Positions 3,315-20,631 of a stretch of DNA of 64,000 bases are shown here, in pieces (the first letter of the stretch is position 1; every line of letters begins with the position of its first letter). Below the pieces are notes generated by a model, which saw only the letters and a list, made by a program, of their open reading frames with translations, ran no database searches and was not told the DNA's origin. Where the stretch lies: NCBI GenBank assembly GCA_000381565.1, contig KB906724.1, forward strand, positions 180,045 to 244,044, in the 5' to 3' direction. Origin of the DNA: Oxalobacteraceae bacterium AB_14. Lineage in GTDB: Bacteria; Pseudomonadota; Gammaproteobacteria; Burkholderiales; Burkholderiaceae_D. The position numbers were made by a program, and so were the translations under genes.

Positions 3315-4728
3315 CAATCCACCCAAGTTAAGGAAAATGTGCGCGGTTAAATAATTTATTTTCAATATTTGCAAATATATACTTGACACCGTATTAAAAG
3401 TGCGGCCGCCAGTGTGAATTTTTATTCCCACTGCCTGCCATGTCTGTTCTGACCATTCTGTTTCAAGATTTCGCCGCCCGACTATGCTCAACAGAATTCC
3501 TCCTCGATGCGCGCCACGCGGACCATCCGACTGCGTTTTCGCGCTGTCGCAAGCTGCCCTTGCCGACGCTGGTCGCCATTATGCTGACGGGCATGCGGAT
3601 GAGCATCCAGGCCGAACTGGACACCTTCTTTGCCCATCTTCGCCAACAAGCCCAGCTGGTCCGGGAAGTGTCGGAGCAGGCGTTCGCCCAAGCGCGTGCC
3701 AAGCTGTCCCCGACCGCCATTCCCGGCCTCAACGACTGGCTCATCGCGCGCGCCGAAACGGACAGGTTTGTGCCGCGCTGGCGCGGACTACGGCTGGTCG
3801 CCGCCGACGCTTCGACGATGCGTTTCGGTCTGCGGGCCAGCCATGTTAAGCGCGCCGCGCTGGCCGATCAAATCCTGTTCGGCCTGTTCTTGCCGGGGCC
3901 GGACCTGATGCTCGCGGCCTCCCTGCACGACGTCCACGAATGCGGCGAACGCCAATTCCTGTTCGAACACCTGGACCGGCTTTCACCGGACGACTTGCTG
4001 TTGCTCGACCGAGGCTATCCCTGCCGCTGGTTGGTCGCCGTGCTCAACGATCGCGCTATCAAGTTCTGCATGCGCGTCGACAATACCAGCAGCTTTGCTT
4101 GCGTGCGCACGTTCATGCGCTCGAACGCGCTTGAACAGATCGTCATGTTGCCCGCGCCGAACAAGCGTGACGCACTTGACTACGAATGCCCGCGCAAACC
4201 ACAGCGCGTGCGTTTGGTTCGCAATGTCTCGCCCAGCGGCGAGCAGCGTGTTCTGATGACCAACCTATTCGATGAACAGCTCTTCCCGGCCGACTGCTTC
4301 GCCGAGCTTTACCACAAGCGCTGGGGCATCGAGGAGGCGTTCAAACGACTCAAGCACCGGCTCAATCTCGAGCACGTCACTGGATTGACCCAGCAAGCCG
4401 TGGCCCAGGACGTGGCCGCCAAAATCGTCTGCGACAATCTGCAGGCTCTCGTCGCTCTAACCGCGCATGCGGACGCCGATCTGCCCGACAACAGACGCGT
4501 CAACCACGCCTATGCCCACACCGCACTCAAGCCGTTGTTGCCCATTCTTCTGCTTGGCGCGGGGATCGGCAGAAAGATCGGCAAACTGCTGCGGGGAATG
4601 CTCGACCTGATTGCCGGACGAACCTATCGCCATCGCGAAAATGTTTCAAAACCACGCAACCCAGGCCGGAAGCCGCACAAGTCGATGAGTCAGAAAAATT
4701 GCTGAAAAGTCTTAACTTGGGTGGATTG
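3315..4728 (+). mobile_element. IS4-family insertion sequence with 10-bp target duplication
   Basis: The 1414-bp element has a perfect 18-bp terminal inverted repeat, CAATCCACCCAAGTTAAG, at 3315-3332 and inverted at 4711-4728. The host sequence ACTTCCACCT is duplicated at 3305-3314 and 4729-4738. It carries one intact transposase gene. The GTTAAG in the ends and the 10-bp duplication fit the IS4 family. The perfect repeats and full-length transposase suggest a recent, possibly active copy. Confidence 0.92.
3440..4705 (+). CDS. IS4-family transposase (DDE)
   Basis: This 421-residue transposase fills the IS4-type element. The catalytic residues are visible: Asp123 in VAADAST, Asp190 in LLLDRGYP and Glu298 in the family signature Y-x2-R-x3-E-x6-K (YHKRWGIEEAFKRLK). 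A basic tail (RKPHKSMSQK) ends 23 bp before the right end. The frame is intact with no internal stop, and the GC content is higher than in the surrounding host gene, as expected for a recent arrival. Confidence 0.93.
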   Translation: MSVLTILFQDFAARLCSTEFLLDARHADHPTAFSRCRKLPLPTLVAIMLTGMRMSIQAELDTFFAHLRQQAQLVREVSEQAFAQARAKLSPTAIPGLNDWLIARAETDRFVPRWRGLRLVAADASTMRFGLRASHVKRAALADQILFGLFLPGPDLMLAASLHDVHECGERQFLFEHLDRLSPDDLLLLDRGYPCRWLVAVLNDRAIKFCMRVDNTSSFACVRTFMRSNALEQIVMLPAPNKRDALDYECPRKPQRVRLVRNVSPSGEQRVLMTNLFDEQLFPADCFAELYHKRWGIEEAFKRLKHRLNLEHVTGLTQQAVAQDVAAKIVCDNLQALVALTAHADADLPDNRRVNHAYAHTALKPLLPILLLGAGIGRKIGKLLRGMLDLIAGRTYRHRENVSKPRNPGRKPHKSMSQKNC

Positions 4729-6996: not shown

Positions 6997-8348
6997 GAGG
7001 GTGTAAATAATTTTGTGTAAACGGTCATTTGGCAGGACACTGCCGCCATCAAGGAGAAATAATGACCGTTGTAAAGCGTAACAAGCGGGCCAAGCCCGAT
7101 CCAGAACTGCTCAAACTGGCCGACAGCCTGCTGGCCAACTACCAGAAGCCCGAGGACCTGATCGGTGAAAACGGCCTGCTCAAGCAGCTCACCAAGATGC
7201 TGGTGGAGCGCGCCCTGGAGGTCGAGATGACTGGCCACCTGGGCCACGACAAGAGCGGCGATGTGACCAACGGTACCGCCAACACCCGCAACGGCCATAG
7301 CACCAAGACCCTAAAGGGCGATTTCGGCTCGCTGCCGCTGGATGTTCCCCGCGACCGCCAAGGAACGTTCGAGCCGCAGATCGTCGTCAAGCACCAGACC
7401 CGCTGGACCGGCTTCGACGACAAAATCATCTCGCTCTACGCGCGCGGCCTGAGCGTGCGGGAAATTCAAGGCCACCTGGAGGAGATGTATGGCACCGAGG
7501 TGTCACCCACCCTCATCTCCAACGTCACGGACGCCGTCAGCGAGGATGTGAAGCTCTGGCAGGCCCGCCCGCTCGACGCCGTGTACCCGATCCTGTATCT
7601 CGACTGCATCCATGTGAAGGTGCGCGACAACGGCGCGGTGCGCACCAAGGCGGTCTACCTGGCCATCGGCGTCAACATGGAGGGCCACAAGGAGGTGCTG
7701 GGCCTGTGGATCTCCCAAACCGAGGGTGCCAAGTTCTGGTTGCAGGTCGTGACCGAACTCAAAAATCGCGGCGTGCAGGACATCTTCATCGCCTGTGTCG
7801 ACGGTTTGAAAGGCTTCCCTGAAGCCATCGAGGCAGTCTACCCACAGACCACCGTTCAACTATGCATCGTCCACATGGTGCGCAATAGCTTGAACTTCGT
7901 GCCCTGGAAGGCGCAGAAGGAAGTGGCCGCCGATTTGAAGCTGATTTACAGCGCGGCCACCGTCGACGAGGCTGAACTCAGGCTCGCGGAATTCGAGGAA
8001 AAATGGGATAAACAGTATAAACCAATAAGCCAGTCTTGGCGCCGCAACTGGGCCCGCGTCATACCGTTCTTCGACTACCCGCCGGAAATCCGCAAGGTGA
8101 TTTACACCACGAACGCGATTGAATCGATTAATATGAGCCTGCGAAAAGTCACCAAGGCCCGCAGTTCCTTCCCGACCGATGATGCAGTCAGCAAGTTGTT
8201 TTACCTCGCGCTGAACAACATCAGCAAGAAGTGGACGATGCCGATACGGGACTGGAAAGCAGCGCTGAACCGCTTCGCCATCCAGTTTGAAGACCGGGTA
8301 CCGCAGGCTTAAACGAAAACCCGTTTACACAGAATCCAGTACACCCCC
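6997..8348 (+). mobile_element. IS256-family insertion sequence with 8-bp target duplication
   Basis: The element is about 1352 bp. Imperfect terminal inverted repeats of about 28 bp begin GAGGGTGTA (left) and GGGGGTGTA (right, inverted) and share GTGTAAACGG at their inner end. Host sequence TCTTTACT is duplicated at 6989-6996 and 8349-8356. Eight-base duplications are normal for IS256. The single transposase gene is intact. Confidence 0.9.
7062..8312 (+). CDS. IS256-family transposase (mutator type)
   Basis: This 416-residue transposase starts at the ATG at 7062 behind AAGGAGAA. Catalytic residues are visible: Asp181 in LYLDCIHVKV, Asp247 in IACVDGLKGFPEA, the C-(2)-H motif CIVHMVRNS and Glu354 in TTNAIESINMSLRK. 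The region GHDKSGDVTNGTANTRNGHSTK is the usual N-terminal hallmark of the family. It is full length and uninterrupted. Confidence 0.95.
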   Translation: MTVVKRNKRAKPDPELLKLADSLLANYQKPEDLIGENGLLKQLTKMLVERALEVEMTGHLGHDKSGDVTNGTANTRNGHSTKTLKGDFGSLPLDVPRDRQGTFEPQIVVKHQTRWTGFDDKIISLYARGLSVREIQGHLEEMYGTEVSPTLISNVTDAVSEDVKLWQARPLDAVYPILYLDCIHVKVRDNGAVRTKAVYLAIGVNMEGHKEVLGLWISQTEGAKFWLQVVTELKNRGVQDIFIACVDGLKGFPEAIEAVYPQTTVQLCIVHMVRNSLNFVPWKAQKEVAADLKLIYSAATVDEAELRLAEFEEKWDKQYKPISQSWRRNWARVIPFFDYPPEIRKVIYTTNAIESINMSLRKVTKARSSFPTDDAVSKLFYLALNNISKKWTMPIRDWKAALNRFAIQFEDRVPQA

Positions 8349-13273: not shown

Positions 13274-14845
13274 TCAGGCGGACTTGCGTTCGCCGCGCTG
13301 GAGGAAGTGTTCGACCAGCGCGCGGTGCGTGGGCAGGTCGGCCAGCGCGCGCAACGACATCTGCTCGATCATCTGGAACTCCCTGCGCGCCTCGTCGACG
13401 CGCGGCAGCGTGCGCGCGTTGGCGTATTGCGCGGTCGGATACTCCATCCCGTACAGCACATACTGCCAGCTGGACGGCGGATACATCTCCAGGTCCACCA
13501 CGAAGTCCATGCGGTGCGGCGCGCGCGTGCGCCACATCGACAGCTTGTCGCGCAGCGATTCGGGAATGCTGGCCGGGTCGGTGTTGTCGCTCCAGAAGGC
13601 GTGGTCCTTGCGCTGCGTGAGGCAGTAGTGCAGCTTGACGAAATCGACGATGCGCTCGTAGCGCGCCTTCATCATCTCGTTGTAGACCTTGGCCACCGGC
13701 GCCAGGTCGCCGTCGTGCGGGAACAGGTAGCTGACCAGGTAGGCCGCCGTTTCGATCAGGCCGATGCCGGACGATTCCAGCGGCTCCAGGAAGCCGCCCG
13801 ACAAGCCGACCGCCACGCAGTTCTTCACCCAGTGCTGCTCGCGGTAGCCGACGTTGAGCTTGAGCTGGCGCGGATTGAGGCCGTCGCTGGCCGGGCCAAT
13901 GTACCGGCGCAGCACTTGCTCGGCGCGGGTGTCGTCGGTGTGGCGGCTGGAGTAGACGTAGCCGATGCCGCGCCGCTGTTGCAGGCCGATGTCCCAGGTC
14001 CATCCCGCCTCGTGCGCGGTGGCGATGGTGTAGGAAGGGATGGGCGCGTCGGCCGACTCGTAGGGCACCTGCATCGCCAGCGCACGGTCGACGAACAGCG
14101 TGTCCTTGATGTTGCGGAAGGGCGTGCCCAGCGCGTCGCCGATCAGCGCCGCGCGGAAGCCGGTGCAGTCGATGTACAGGTCGGCCGTCAGCACGCCGGC
14201 CTCTTTGGTGTGCACCGCGCCGATCGCGCCCTGGTCGTCCAGCTCCACCCGCTCCACCGTGGCCTGCACGTGGCGCACGCCCAGCGATTGCGCGTGGGTG
14301 CTGAGCAGGGCGGCGAACTTGCCGGCGTCGAAATGGTAGGCGTAGTTCAGCGGACCCATGAAGTCGGCGTCGTTGTAGCGCTTGGGGCCGTGCGCGGCGT
14401 CCGCCACCCGCTTCTGCATGGTGGCGGCGGCGGCGAAGCCCGCGCCTGGCGCGGCCGCGCCTTGCAGCCAGTAGGGCAGCAGCTCCGGGCCGCCGGGCCG
14501 CTGGCTGGGCAGGCTGAAGGGGTGGAAGTAGTGGTCGTTGCCGGGCGCGCCGGGCGGGCGCACCCAGTCGGTGAACTTGATGCCCTGCTTGAAGGTGGCG
14601 TGGCATTCGCGGATGAAGCGCGCCTCGTCGATGCCGATGGCGGCCAAGGTGCCGCGGATCGACGGGAAGGTGCCTTCGCCGACGCCGATGATGCCGATCT
14701 CCCTCGATTCCACCAGCGTGATGCGCACGCTATCCTCGTCCGCGCCGGCGCCCAGGGTGCGGGCCAGGAAGGCCGCCGTCAGCCAGCCGGCGGTGCCGCC
14801 GCCGACGATCAGGACGTTTTTGACAGGTGTTGGCATCGATTTCAT
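13274..14845 (-). CDS. flavin-dependent tryptophan halogenase-family protein
   Basis: The protein has 523 residues. The FAD motif GGGTAGW is at 15-21, GVGEGTFP follows, and a conserved Lys lies in FKQGIKFTDW, the position of the catalytic lysine that forms the haloamine. The family hallmark WxWxIP appears here as WTWDIG, a variant seen in halogenase-like proteins near TonB receptors. It would halogenate an aromatic substrate using FADH2 from a separate reductase. It is divergent from the TonB receptor across a 251-bp regulatory region with repeated palindromes. Substrate and actual halogenase activity are unproven. Confidence 0.87.
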   Translation of the reverse strand: MKSMPTPVKNVLIVGGGTAGWLTAAFLARTLGAGADEDSVRITLVESREIGIIGVGEGTFPSIRGTLAAIGIDEARFIRECHATFKQGIKFTDWVRPPGAPGNDHYFHPFSLPSQRPGGPELLPYWLQGAAAPGAGFAAAATMQKRVADAAHGPKRYNDADFMGPLNYAYHFDAGKFAALLSTHAQSLGVRHVQATVERVELDDQGAIGAVHTKEAGVLTADLYIDCTGFRAALIGDALGTPFRNIKDTLFVDRALAMQVPYESADAPIPSYTIATAHEAGWTWDIGLQQRRGIGYVYSSRHTDDTRAEQVLRRYIGPASDGLNPRQLKLNVGYREQHWVKNCVAVGLSGGFLEPLESSGIGLIETAAYLVSYLFPHDGDLAPVAKVYNEMMKARYERIVDFVKLHYCLTQRKDHAFWSDNTDPASIPESLRDKLSMWRTRAPHRMDFVVDLEMYPPSSWQYVLYGMEYPTAQYANARTLPRVDEARREFQMIEQMSLRALADLPTHRALVEHFLQRGERKSA

Positions 14846-14961
14846 TTTATTTCGGTCTCCATCGGTAGAGTGTGCAGCCTCTCAAAACGTCGTTTGACAT
14901 GTCTGGGAAACAACGCCGCTACAATTTTTAAATTGACATCCGTGATTTGAATTATGTACCA

Positions 14962-15037
14962 TGAAATCGATTTCACAAATAACGAAATCGTTTTCAGTGA
15001 ATTTGAAAACGATTTCAAGCAACATGAGATCGATTTC
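14962..15037. promoter_or_regulatory. array of four LacI-type palindromes with exact 21-bp period
   Basis: Four sites lie at 14962-14975 (TGAAATCGATTTCA), 14984-14995 (GAAATCGTTTTC), 15004-15017 (TGAAAACGATTTCA) and 15026-15037 (GAGATCGATTTC). Each is centred on CG, at 14968, 14989, 15010 and 15031. The period equals two helical turns, so all sites face the same side of the helix. The array lies between the halogenase and the TonB receptor, 60-135 bp before the receptor start. A TTGACA at 14933 and another at 14894 are candidate -35 boxes upstream of it. The central CG and AT arms fit LacI/GalR-family operators. The same 14-mer as site 3 recurs at the beta-glucosidase promoter. Confidence 0.85.
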
Positions 15038-15096
15038 CACCATGATAAATGTGGCACCGCCCCTTCCCCCGGCGATCGCTACGCAAAAGGAGACTT

Positions 15097-17544
15097 ATGA
15101 ACGTCCACGTACCGCAGTCCGGGAAGCGCTTGCCGTCCCCGATCCAGTTGGCCATCCTCGCCCTGATGGCCGGCGCCAGCGTCACCGCCTATGCGGCCAC
15201 CCCGGCCGAAGCATCGGCCGCCGAGCAGACCATCGCCGTCGTCCCCGCCGCCGATAAAACCTCCTCGACCATCACCGAGGTGTATGTCACCGCGACCAAG
15301 CGATCCACTTCGCTGCAAAAGACCCCGGTCGCGGTGACCGCGCTGAACGCGGCGGTGCTGGACGATAACCACGTGCAGACCTTGCAGGACGTGGTCAACC
15401 TGGTGCCAGGCTTCGCCGCCACCGGCCAGGGCGACCACGGCGTGATCACCATGACCTTGCGCGGCATCGGCAACGACAGCGCCAAGACCGAATACGCCGA
15501 TCCTGAAGTGGCCAGCTTCGTCGACGGCATCTACTCGCCGCGTCCGGAAGGCGCGACCGCGCTGCTGTTCGACCTGGACGCGATCGAAGTGCTGCGCGGC
15601 CCGCAAGGCACGCTGTGGGGCCGCAACTCGACGGTCGGCGCAGTCAATATGCAGACCGTGAAGCCGGAGATCGGCAGCAGCGCCGGCAACTTCGAAGCGG
15701 GCTACGGCAGCTACGCCCGTCTGGGCGCGCGCGGCGCGGTCAACATCCCGATCAGCGACACCATGGCGATGCGCGTGGCGGTGGTGCACGAGCAGCACAA
15801 CGGCTACGTCAGCTACCAGGATGCGCCCAACCTGTCGCTCGCCGCCCAGCACACGGCGGCCGATCCGGTGATCGCCGCATGGAACACCGCGCATCCGGGC
15901 AATCCGATCGCCTTCCAGCCGATCAACACCAACCTGTACGTCAACAACAACCAGAAGTACAGCGCGCAGGACCAGAGCGCGGCGCGCCTGAGCTTCCTGT
16001 GGCAGCCGATGCCGGGCCTGAAGTGGAACGTCGCGTATGAGCACTACATGGACCGCGGCACGCCGAGCATGAACCTGATGCAGACGCCGCGCGCGGGCCA
16101 GGATTTCTGGTCGGCGCTGATCGACGTCGCGCCTAGCGTGAACCGCGATTCGCATTCGGTGCGCAGCCGCGTCGACTACGAGATCAACAAGGACGTCAGC
16201 CTGGCCTACATCGCTGGCTACTCGCGCTTCAACGGCTCGTCGACCTTCGACCAGGACGGCGGCGCGAATATCCCGACCAGCTTCACCAGCGGCGGCAGCT
16301 ACCAGGCCAACAACACCGTCTGGTCCAAGTACAGGAACTACAGCCACGAACTGGAAATCCAGTCGACCGGCAAGCGCGATGTGGACTGGCTGCTTGGCCT
16401 GTACTACGCCAATGAGGACAACGGCATCCGCTTCGACATCCCGATCATTAACGGCACCCAGCAGGGCACCGTGGGCTGGCAGGGCTCCTTCATCCAGCCC
16501 AAGGAAACCGTGGAATCGAAGTCGGTCTTCGGCCAGGCCACCTGGAACGCCAACGATGCCTTGCATGTCACCGGCGGCCTGCGCTACACCTCGGACGAGC
16601 GCAAGAACATCGGCGGCACCAACAACGGCTGGAGCAATTCGGACGCGCCGCAGATTCCTGTGAGCCCTTCGATGAATCCACTGGGCGGCGGCACCGGCTT
16701 CTCGACCTACCAGCGCAACGACGGCGTGTTCAACGACCACAAGCTGACCGGCCTGGTACGCGTGAGCTACGAGATCGACAAGCACAACATGGTCTACGCC
16801 AGCGTATCGACCGGCTACAAGTCGGGCGGTCTGCAGGATGGCGGCGTGCCATATGGTTCCGAGACGCTGACCAACTACGAAGTCGGTTCGAAGAGCACCT
16901 TCCTGGGCGGTTCGGTGCGGATGAACAATTCGGCCTACTACGAGAAGTTCAAGGGCTTCCAGTTCAGCGCACCGGTGACCTATGCGGACGGCACGCGCGG
17001 CCTGGCGACCAGCAATGCCGAAGGTGCCAAGGTCTGGGGTATCGAGACGGAAATCGCGGCGAAGATCACGCCTGTGGACCGCGTGCAGCTCACCGCCGCC
17101 TACACCAACGCCACGCTCAAGCATCTGATCGGCGGCAGTAACGACTACGTGCTGCCGGCATGCACGGCCCCTGGCATCACCAATCCGTGCCTGGACGTGA
17201 CCGGCAATACCATGCCGCACTCGCCGAAGTTCAGCGCGCAGATGATGTATCAGCACAGCTTCGCTCTGGCCAACGGCACGCTGATACCGCGCATCAGCGC
17301 ACACTACGAGACGGCCAGCTGGCTGAGCGTGTTCAATCTGGGTGAGCCGGACAAGCAGAAGTCCTACACCCGGACCGACCTTGGCCTGCGTTTCGACGCC
17401 GATTCGAAGTGGTACTTCGACGCCTACATCCGCAACGCGGAAGACGCGAAGATCAAGACCAGCGCGATGAACGCCAACGGTCCGTGGCAAGCGCAGTACC
17501 TGCCGCCACGCACCTTCGGCATCAACGTCGGCAAGTCGTTCTAA
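15097..17544 (+). CDS. TonB-dependent outer-membrane receptor
   Basis: The protein has 815 residues from the ATG at 15097, chosen for AAAAGGAGA just upstream. The signal peptide ends near AYAATPAE. A TonB-box-like TEVYVTATKR is followed by the plug domain (VAVTALNAAVLDD, LRGIGND, DGIYSPRPEG, VEVLRGPQGTLWGRN-like segment) and a beta-barrel ending in NVGKSF with a terminal Phe. It would import a large substrate across the outer membrane using TonB energy. The locus (GH1 beta-glucosidase, MFS carrier, shared operators) points to a glycoside or sugar-conjugate ligand rather than a siderophore, which is inference. Confidence 0.93.
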   Translation: MNVHVPQSGKRLPSPIQLAILALMAGASVTAYAATPAEASAAEQTIAVVPAADKTSSTITEVYVTATKRSTSLQKTPVAVTALNAAVLDDNHVQTLQDVVNLVPGFAATGQGDHGVITMTLRGIGNDSAKTEYADPEVASFVDGIYSPRPEGATALLFDLDAIEVLRGPQGTLWGRNSTVGAVNMQTVKPEIGSSAGNFEAGYGSYARLGARGAVNIPISDTMAMRVAVVHEQHNGYVSYQDAPNLSLAAQHTAADPVIAAWNTAHPGNPIAFQPINTNLYVNNNQKYSAQDQSAARLSFLWQPMPGLKWNVAYEHYMDRGTPSMNLMQTPRAGQDFWSALIDVAPSVNRDSHSVRSRVDYEINKDVSLAYIAGYSRFNGSSTFDQDGGANIPTSFTSGGSYQANNTVWSKYRNYSHELEIQSTGKRDVDWLLGLYYANEDNGIRFDIPIINGTQQGTVGWQGSFIQPKETVESKSVFGQATWNANDALHVTGGLRYTSDERKNIGGTNNGWSNSDAPQIPVSPSMNPLGGGTGFSTYQRNDGVFNDHKLTGLVRVSYEIDKHNMVYASVSTGYKSGGLQDGGVPYGSETLTNYEVGSKSTFLGGSVRMNNSAYYEKFKGFQFSAPVTYADGTRGLATSNAEGAKVWGIETEIAAKITPVDRVQLTAAYTNATLKHLIGGSNDYVLPACTAPGITNPCLDVTGNTMPHSPKFSAQMMYQHSFALANGTLIPRISAHYETASWLSVFNLGEPDKQKSYTRTDLGLRFDADSKWYFDAYIRNAEDAKIKTSAMNANGPWQAQYLPPRTFGINVGKSF

Positions 17545-17714: not shown

Positions 17715-19079
17715 TTAGTCTTTGTGGTGGAACGGTGCGTACCAGGTGACGATGAACGATGGGATCGTGGCGGCCATCACCAGCCAGAAGTAGTGCACAT
17801 AGCCTAAAGCCTGTTGCAAATGGCCGCTGACGATGCCGGTGACCATCATGCACAGGCCCATCAGGCCCGTGCCGAACGCGTAGTGCGTGGTGGTGTATTT
17901 GCCCGGCGCCAGCTGCTGCATCAGGTAGATCATGAAGCCCACCGAACCGAAACCGAAGAAGAACTTCTCGATCGCCACGCCGGCGCTGATGATCAGCAGG
18001 TCATGCGGCTGGTAGATGCTCATCAGCAGGAAGGTGAGGTTGGGGATGTTGACCGCGCAGCACAGCACGAACAAGGTCGCCGGCAGTCCGCGCCGGGCGA
18101 CGAAGATCCCGCCCAGCAGTGAGCCCAGCAGCACCGCGATCAGGCCATAGGTGCCGTAGATCAGTCCCAGCATCTCGTTCGACAATCCCAGCCCGCCCTG
18201 CGCCACCGGATCGACCATGAAGAAGGGGCCGATCTTTTCCAGCAGCCCGATGCTGAGCCGGAACAGGAAGGCAAACGACACCATCAGCCACACGTCGCGC
18301 TTCTGGAAGAAGGTGACGAAGGAATCCTTGAGGATGAAGGCCGCTTCGGCCACCGACTTCGGCGCGTTCTCCGCCTTGGCGCCGTCCGGCATCACGCGCA
18401 TGTGCCACAGCGCCGCGACGATGGTGACGGCCGCGACGATGAAGAAGATGATGCGCCACGATTCGATCCACTCCGGCCCGAACACGCCGGCCTGGTGATG
18501 GAAGTAGTGCGTGTGCAGCCAGCCGCTCAGGTACACCATGCCGCCCGAGGCGACGATGGGACCGATGTTCCAGCTCAGGCTCTGGATGCCGCAGAACAGC
18601 GACTGCGTCTTGGCGTCCAGCGAGGTGACGTACACGCCGTCGGACGCGATGTCCTGCGTGGCGCCGACCAGCGACAGCATGCCGAACATGAACACCATCA
18701 CCACCATGTAGTCCGGCAGCGACATCGCCAGCGCCACGCCGGCGAAACCGAGGCCGATGATCAGCTGCGCGCACAGCACGAAGAATTTCTTGGTGCGGTA
18801 CATTTCAACGAATGGCGCGAACAGCGGCTTGATGGTGTAGGCCAGGATCAGATAGCTGGCGTATTGCGCTGCCTGGCCGTTGTCCATGCCCAGGTTCTTG
18901 AACATGATGGAGGTGACGCTGGTGAGCATCATGTAGGTCAGCGCCATCGCGAAATAGCCGCTGGGGACCCACAACATCGGCGTGCCGCGCGCGAACATGG
19001 CGCGCAACAGCGATGGCGGTTGGCTGGCGGGGGAGGGAGCCTGCGGCTCTTGTGGCACGGCGGATGGTGCGGTTTGCAT
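17715..19079 (-). CDS. MFS transporter, AmpG/sugar-porter-like
   Basis: The protein has 454 residues from the ATG at 19079; the longer open frame upstream lacks a binding site, while GAGGACGAC precedes this ATG. A Pro/Ala-rich cytoplasmic N-terminus is followed by about 12 hydrophobic segments, with loops such as EMYRTKKF and KYTTTHYAFGTG. The overall pattern resembles AmpG-like and related MFS permeases found in TonB receptor/glycoside hydrolase loci. It probably moves the hydrolysed or imported glycoside across the inner membrane. It follows the beta-glucosidase gene on the same strand after a terminator-like hairpin. Confidence 0.82.
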   Translation of the reverse strand: MQTAPSAVPQEPQAPSPASQPPSLLRAMFARGTPMLWVPSGYFAMALTYMMLTSVTSIMFKNLGMDNGQAAQYASYLILAYTIKPLFAPFVEMYRTKKFFVLCAQLIIGLGFAGVALAMSLPDYMVVMVFMFGMLSLVGATQDIASDGVYVTSLDAKTQSLFCGIQSLSWNIGPIVASGGMVYLSGWLHTHYFHHQAGVFGPEWIESWRIIFFIVAAVTIVAALWHMRVMPDGAKAENAPKSVAEAAFILKDSFVTFFQKRDVWLMVSFAFLFRLSIGLLEKIGPFFMVDPVAQGGLGLSNEMLGLIYGTYGLIAVLLGSLLGGIFVARRGLPATLFVLCCAVNIPNLTFLLMSIYQPHDLLIISAGVAIEKFFFGFGSVGFMIYLMQQLAPGKYTTTHYAFGTGLMGLCMMVTGIVSGHLQQALGYVHYFWLVMAATIPSFIVTWYAPFHHKD

Positions 19080-19141
19080 GATGTCGTCCTCGTTATTCTC
19101 GTTGGAGTGTAAAGCATCAGGCTCTGTGGCCTGTAGAAAGG

Positions 19142-19165
19142 AAAACGCCGGCATCTGCGCCGGCG
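19142..19165 (-). terminator. terminator or attenuator between beta-glucosidase and MFS genes
   Basis: On the minus strand CGCCGGC pairs with GCCGGCG (6-nt loop) followed by TTTTCC. It comes 18 bp after the beta-glucosidase stop and 63 bp before the MFS start, so it could lower MFS expression relative to the glucosidase. Confidence 0.7.
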
Positions 19166-19182: not shown

Positions 19183-20523
<1,341 letters not shown>

Positions 20524-20574: not shown

Positions 20575-20631
20575 TGAAAACGATTTCACGCCTCCTGACT
20601 CGATTAGACCTCAAGTCAAACGGGGTGTCAA
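20575..20631 (-). promoter_or_regulatory. beta-glucosidase promoter with LacI-type operator
   Basis: On the minus strand TTGACA (20631-20626), a 17-bp spacer and TCTAAT (20608-20603) form a strong sigma-70 promoter. The palindrome TGAAAACGATTTCA (20588-20575) lies about +9 to +22 from the predicted start, a classic repressor position. It is identical to the third site of the receptor array. Confidence 0.85.

Follow-up and report, generated by a model that had tools for sequence, protein, structure and literature searches.

The question raised by this locus is why one short intergenic region should carry four copies of an operator-like palindrome at a constant distance, and which protein would read them. 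In the window (the whole stretch of DNA that was analysed, 64,000 nt), the sites lie at 14962..14975 (TGAAATCGATTTCA, site 1, over the predicted transcription start), 14983..14996 (CGAAATCGTTTTCA, site 2), 15004..15017 (TGAAAACGATTTCA, site 3) and 15025..15038 (TGAGATCGATTTCC, site 4), with no strand assigned, and their start-to-start distances are 21, 21 and 21 bp. A preliminary description of this DNA had reported four near-identical 14-bp palindromes with central CG and a 21-bp period. The four sites and their period are confirmed, however site 4 ends at 15038 and not at 15037, and the palindrome is perfect in site 1 only, one or two pairs being broken in sites 2-4. The array was also rightly placed between a halogenase and a TonB receptor, namely a flavin-dependent halogenase (PF04820) gene at 13274..14845 on the minus strand and a TonB-dependent receptor gene at 15097..17544 on the plus strand. 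For the latter the ATG at 15097, after AAGGAGACTT, was chosen as the start; the ORF list gives an earlier ATG at 15049. As even palindromes with a CG centre, the sites have the form of LacI-family operators, and their position, -135 to -59 relative to ATG 15097, is inside the range of such operators, more than 75% of which, according to Ravcheev et al. 2014 (PMC4052901), are found about 140-30 bp before the start codon.

The sites stand out clearly from their background. In 2000 dinucleotide shuffles of the upstream region, counting as a site any match of at least 10/12 with a central CG, 1942 contained no site, 57 contained one, a single shuffle contained two and none contained more. A scan of the window allowing up to three mismatches found 12 matches against 1.5 expected, the maximum in 100 shuffles being 5. 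The genome, of 7,028,009 bases, contains the exact motif TGAAANCGNTTTCA only four times. Two of these copies belong to the array and a third precedes a GH1 gene (window 20575); the fourth, on the other large contig, stands between L006, a gene of the LacI family, and the divergently oriented gene for glucokinase. One mismatch is present at twelve further places, and this locus accounts for two of them, array site 2 and a site inside GH1. Since the exact matches are all at three promoters of one pathway, the motif marks a pathway and not a dispersed repeat. A weak 21-bp pair at 1748/1769 was rejected as an array, being really one inverted repeat with a 7-nt loop; this repeat (1748-1782), with 13-base arms around the 7-base loop, mimics two operator sites 21 bp apart and precedes an ORF without family match (1844-2632).

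Conservation was examined in 245 family genomes, 47 of which have a homologue of the receptor (E up to 1e-100). Amongst 46 relatives, a 21-bp site pair was found within 450 bp before the receptor match in 37 and further out in 2, one relative has a pair at 20 bp and one at 19 bp, and no site pair was found before the receptor in 5. A second set comprised the best 80 named loci, which with the window make 81; they come from Duganella, Rugamonas, Massilia, Pseudoduganella, Undibacterium and others, including the more distant types Roseateles, Mitsuaria, Rhodoferax and Solimonas. In this set 94 of the 114 adjacent site distances under 60 bp are 21 bp, the others being 20 (3), 24 (7), 28 (1), 38 (1), 39 (3) and 51 bp (5), and no pair at 21 bp appeared in 20 shuffles of each region. 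The distance from array to gene varies among the 81 loci. Exact 21-bp runs are present in 55 of the 81: 30 loci have two sites, 11 have three and 14 have four. Allowing 19-22 bp there are four sites in 16 loci, three in 9, two in 31, one in 23 and none in 2. As the loci are related by descent, counts across them are not independent.

It had also been suggested that selection acts on the sites and their phase, the spacers differing, and the column values bear this out. Across 48 distinct arrays, taking all but the last site of each, 11 of the 14 site columns reach 1.84-2.00 bits and the spacer columns only 0.17-0.51; positions 7-8 are CG in 84/84 units, where CG was itself a search condition. 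The constant distance and the loose spacers therefore carry more weight than the conserved site columns, which the score threshold selects. Within 13 distinct four-site arrays site 1 is the most conserved, with a pairwise identity of 1.00. An independent scan of the 245 family genomes, in which the gap between two exact sites could be anything from 0 to 30 bp, found pairs in 21 genomes, in 18 of which they are 21 or 42 bp apart, and none with the reversed-pattern control. The exceptions are at 20 bp (G231), 19 bp (G154) and 26 bp (G222), the last of which was rejected as an array, having a different core (TGAAAGCGCTTTCA) and lying before another gene. Hence the search of relatives for the motif and its 21-bp phasing found both conserved, and the assignment to the LacI/GalR operator form is supported by sites kept together with their distance.

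The number of sites differs between lineages: Massilia types have two, and the clade of Duganella, Rugamonas and Pseudoduganella has three or four. In a FastTree tree of the receptor, triples and quartets at 20-21 bp form one clade of 24 rows (16 with four sites, 8 with three), the rows nearest to the window being Rugamonas rivuli and R. aquatica; a further triple, in an Undibacterium genome, lies outside it. An orphan three-site 21-bp array with promoter-like boxes was seen at L126:9945-10000 (G089), with MFS and GH1 genes 7-10 kb away and neither receptor nor halogenase in its 20-kb stretch.

The position of site 1 suggests how such an array could act. The receptor promoter, TTGACA-N18-TACCAT at 14933..14962 on the plus strand, ends with a T (14962) that is the first base of site 1. 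This fusion is general: among the best 80 named loci and the window, the last base of a TAnnAT box is also the first of a site scoring at least 11/12 in 63/63 loci of the TGAAA operator type, and in the same 63 loci a TTGACA-like box (at least 5/6) precedes it by 18 bases in 61 and by 17 in 2. Given this overlap, the array spans roughly -7 to +69, which puts site 1 over the likely start of transcription and sites 2-4 in the leader, a geometry that suits a repressor. On the minus strand, a possible halogenase promoter (TTGTGA-N16-CATAAT, 14951..14978), a weak match to the consensus, runs across site 1 and spacer 1, and its letters recur in 20 of the 63 loci. A weak divergent promoter of this kind is a possible reason why spacer 1 is better conserved (0.86) than the other spacers (0.51 and 0.56) in the 13 distinct four-site arrays. 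A weak site, TGGCATCGATTTCA, at 14831..14844 (no strand assigned) overlaps the halogenase start codon, and a 10/12 site 119-140 bp before site 1 is found in 14 of the 81 loci.

The two-turn distance is not shared by every lineage. All seven loci with 24-bp pairs have the TGACA operator, and in 10 of the 16 loci of this group (again among the best 80 and the window) the -35 box is inside an operator, 18 bp before the TAnnAT box. The distance of 21 bp thus characterizes the TGAAA group and not the locus wherever it occurs. In L163, L195, L198, L210 and L213, operators TGACANCGNTGTCA stand 24 bp apart before the receptor, the second containing the -35 TTGACA, and four of these five, those in which a LacI-type gene was found, have the recognition helix IK. 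In the Undibacterium-type loci L162, L167, L175 and L176 the fusion of -10 box and site 1 is kept, with other sites placed 51 bp upstream of site 1 and 38-39 bp downstream of it.

No LacI-type gene is present in the 64,000-nt window, and the genome has twelve. The likely binder of the array, judging from the sequences, is the LacI-family protein L006 (G000:C2:2180852-2181868), which is BglR-like and combines a helix-turn-helix (PF00356, 60.3 bits, cut-off 27) with a sugar domain of the periplasmic-binding type (PF13377, 122.8 bits, cut-off 26.5), as LacI-family repressors do. Its gene is on another contig, and its link to the array comes from relatives. Within the 20-kb stretch that surrounds the receptor, 39 of 46 relatives carry a LacI-type gene, and 53 of the best 80 named loci likewise have one in their surroundings. 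By identity to L006 the proteins of relatives form two sub-types, one at about 70-82% and the other at 52-57%, with one case at 36%. Of the 245 family genomes, 75 have an L006 homologue (E up to 1e-80), namely 46 of 47 with the receptor against 29 of 198 without it, and the sole receptor genome lacking one, G108, is 82% complete. The operator sequence changes together with the recognition helix of the LacI-type protein. Among the best 80 named loci, which are related by descent, a helix with P/A-S/A goes with the TGAAA operator in 37/37 loci, and a helix with IK goes with TGACA in 14 of 16 and with TGAAA in 0, no operator being found in 2. We also considered whether extra operators compensate for a repressor gene that has moved away, and rejected this, as the repressor gene lies nearby in L158 and L159, which have four sites when distances of 20-21 bp are counted, and in L056 (three).

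E. coli LacI is a tetramer held by its C-terminal helix. The alignment of L006 covers residues 3-329 of the LacI chain, which has 360, and leaves 4 residues of L006 over; the protein thus ends before the region of the tetramer helix, which lies beyond the LacI residues covered by the alignment. The C-terminal helix expected of a looping tetramer is absent from L006, and with no room for it side-by-side contact is likelier than a loop; looping, suggested earlier, is therefore not favoured in the form of a LacI-type tetramer. The best solved-structure match of L006 is CcpA (E 2.2e-60), and the half-site is similar to that of cre; the score of L006, 215.9 bits, nevertheless falls far short of the NCBIfam cut-off for CcpA (442.35), and none of the 18 NCBIfam models listed for L006 reaches its cut-off.

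The genes near these sites point to sugar uptake. Downstream of the receptor in the window, a GH1 beta-glucosidase gene (19183..20523, minus strand; TIGR03356, 599.2 bits, cut-off 478.5) is followed downstream by an MFS transporter gene (17715..19154, minus strand). The single operator before GH1, at 20575..20588 (no strand assigned), reads TGAAAACGATTTCA on the plus strand and lies just downstream of a promoter-like TTGACA-N17-TCTAAT (20603..20631, minus strand). In L058 the receptor, GH1, glucokinase, MFS and a GH9 cellulase follow one another on one strand, and beside the L006 gene in the genome studied are glucokinase, GH12, TonB receptor and GH3 genes. The role of the locus is therefore likely to be the uptake and use of beta-glucosides or beta-glucans, or of cello-oligosaccharides. 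The stretch adjoining the L006 gene (L132:12040-18478) holds a GH12 with ricin-type lectin domains, a TonB receptor and a GH3; no site of at least 10/12 was found before these three genes. Within a few kb of the receptor locus there are also an IS4-family transposase (3440-4705) and an ORF (7029-8312) that, judged by eye, resembles an IS256-type transposase.

A further operator-like site, TGCAATCGTTTTCA, lies inside GH1 at 20035..20048 (no strand assigned), 540 bp from the operator of that gene. For comparison, 117 GH1 matches were reduced to 91 distinct regions, counting copies identical over 300 bases once and leaving out matches that do not cover the internal position. An operator near the gene start was found in 24 of the 91, and in 16 of these 24 an internal site scoring 10-12 of 12 is present at the same codon position, whereas it is absent in 8 (one being L052, a Duganella relative) and none of the 67 regions without operator scores above 8. 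Simulations of synonymous recoding reach the score of the internal site in 4.2% of cases for one of the 16 and in 0-0.4% for each of the other 15. Identity over the internal 14 bases is 96% in 16 of the 19 clade rows (L051 had no row, L053 was partial, and L052, complete and without internal site, was left out), where the mean is 84% and 33 of 1286 windows are equally high; full conservation at third positions, as seen in this site, is common to a quarter of 254 codons with an invariant residue. Although shared descent weakens this test, the site is a probable auxiliary operator, similar to lacO2. In E. coli lac, O1 lies just downstream of the promoter and O2 inside the structural gene, and the GH1 gene is alike in having an operator downstream of its promoter and a further one within.

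Tandem operators of the LacI family are known, for example for RafR of Enterobacteriales and ScrR of Burkholderiales (Ravcheev et al. 2014, PMC4052901). In that survey, about 20% of operons have more than one site, with three sites at 116 operons and four at 5; distances between sites peak at 22 bp, which was read as cooperative binding of two dimers, and LacI sites deep within lacZ are mentioned. Four phased copies, described previously as unusual, are thus rare but have a precedent in those five operons. The known arrays share with ours their even, CG-centred palindromes and 21-22 bp pairs (PMC4052901). The arrays described here differ in their setting, beside a halogenase and a TonB receptor of Oxalobacteraceae, in the overlap of site 1 with the -10 box, and in a site number that ranges from two to four at one orthologous promoter. 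The survey also describes LacI-family control of beta-glucoside use by BglR1-3 and GluR of Caulobacterales, GluR acting on a glucokinase-containing operon, with a predicted response to beta-glucosides or glucose (PMC4052901); the likeness to L006 is one of described role, and Caulobacterales are another lineage. By analogy with these regulators the inducer here is likely a beta-glucoside or glucose.

Taking these lines together, we hold with good confidence that the array is the control region of a beta-glucoside/cello-oligosaccharide uptake locus under L006-type dimers that probably act cooperatively. From the sequences we infer that such dimers would bind each of the four sites. A dimer on site 1, over the -10 box and start, would keep RNA polymerase out, and dimers on sites 2-4, on the same helix face in the leader, would hold each other and that on site 1 and may also obstruct early elongation. 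Such mutual support would give tighter repression and a steeper response. Repression would be lifted by a sugar that frees the dimers, this being probably a beta-glucoside or glucose, and through the single sites the same protein would also control GH1-MFS and the repressor/glucokinase pair. A more specific form of this model is a one-dimensional assembly, in which dimers lacking the tetramer helix are stacked from the -10 box into the leader, steepness is tuned by adding 21-bp units and the lacO2-like GH1 operator was gained in the same clade; this we put forward only tentatively, and it is rather less likely to hold than to fail.

The sites could instead be four independent operators that raise local occupancy or block elongation, their 21 bp inherited from a tandem duplication. 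The 24 bp of the sister group and the 38-39 and 51 bp of the Undibacterium types, which imply that whole-turn phase is not needed in every relative, agree with such independence, as does a candidate repressor without room for a LacI-type tetramer helix. However, near-random spacers together with 21 bp in 94 of 114 pairs are unexplained by duplication without selection on distance, and the same distance occurs in unrelated regulons (PMC4052901), so that we consider independent operators unlikely. It is more doubtful still that the real binder is another, or several, of the twelve LacI-type proteins of the genome. With eleven other such genes and a similar site, GGAAAACGTTTTCA, just after one of them, cross-talk is possible, but only the L006 type adjoins the array in relatives and co-occurs with it, L006 alone among the twelve reads PS in its recognition helix, and an exact TGAAANCGNTTTCA site lies at its own promoter region.

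Nor is the array likely to act as RNA, through leader hairpins that attenuate transcription. Sites 2 and 3 pair perfectly and a terminator-like 14-pair stem lies over them on the minus strand, although palindromes form hairpins in any case. The most conserved of the sites is site 1, which shares bases with the -10 box and would be transcribed only in part, there is just one site each at GH1 and glucokinase, and the operator changes with the repressor recognition helix, all of which leaves attenuation a very slight chance. A dispersed repeat or a chance arrangement without function is ruled out by the shuffles, by the four exact matches in 7.03 Mb and by the conservation in relatives, and has practically no probability left.

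The array is real and conserved, and switches of its kind are already in print, as PMC4052901 shows. What is new here is the regulon, of which no description was found in a literature search (most subscription journals being outside its coverage), the promoter-fused geometry, the natural variation from two to four sites within one clade and its relatives, and the probable lacO2-like operator of GH1. Through the array, a TonB-linked halogenase comes under likely sugar control. The sister group differs in operator sequence, in distance (24 bp), in position (at the -35 box) and in the repressor recognition helix. The value of the finding lies in this change of operator and repressor between clades and in the natural series of site number, one orthologous promoter occurring with one, two, three or four operators, so that existing sequences could be used to test the effect of operator number and phase on how strong and how steep repression is.
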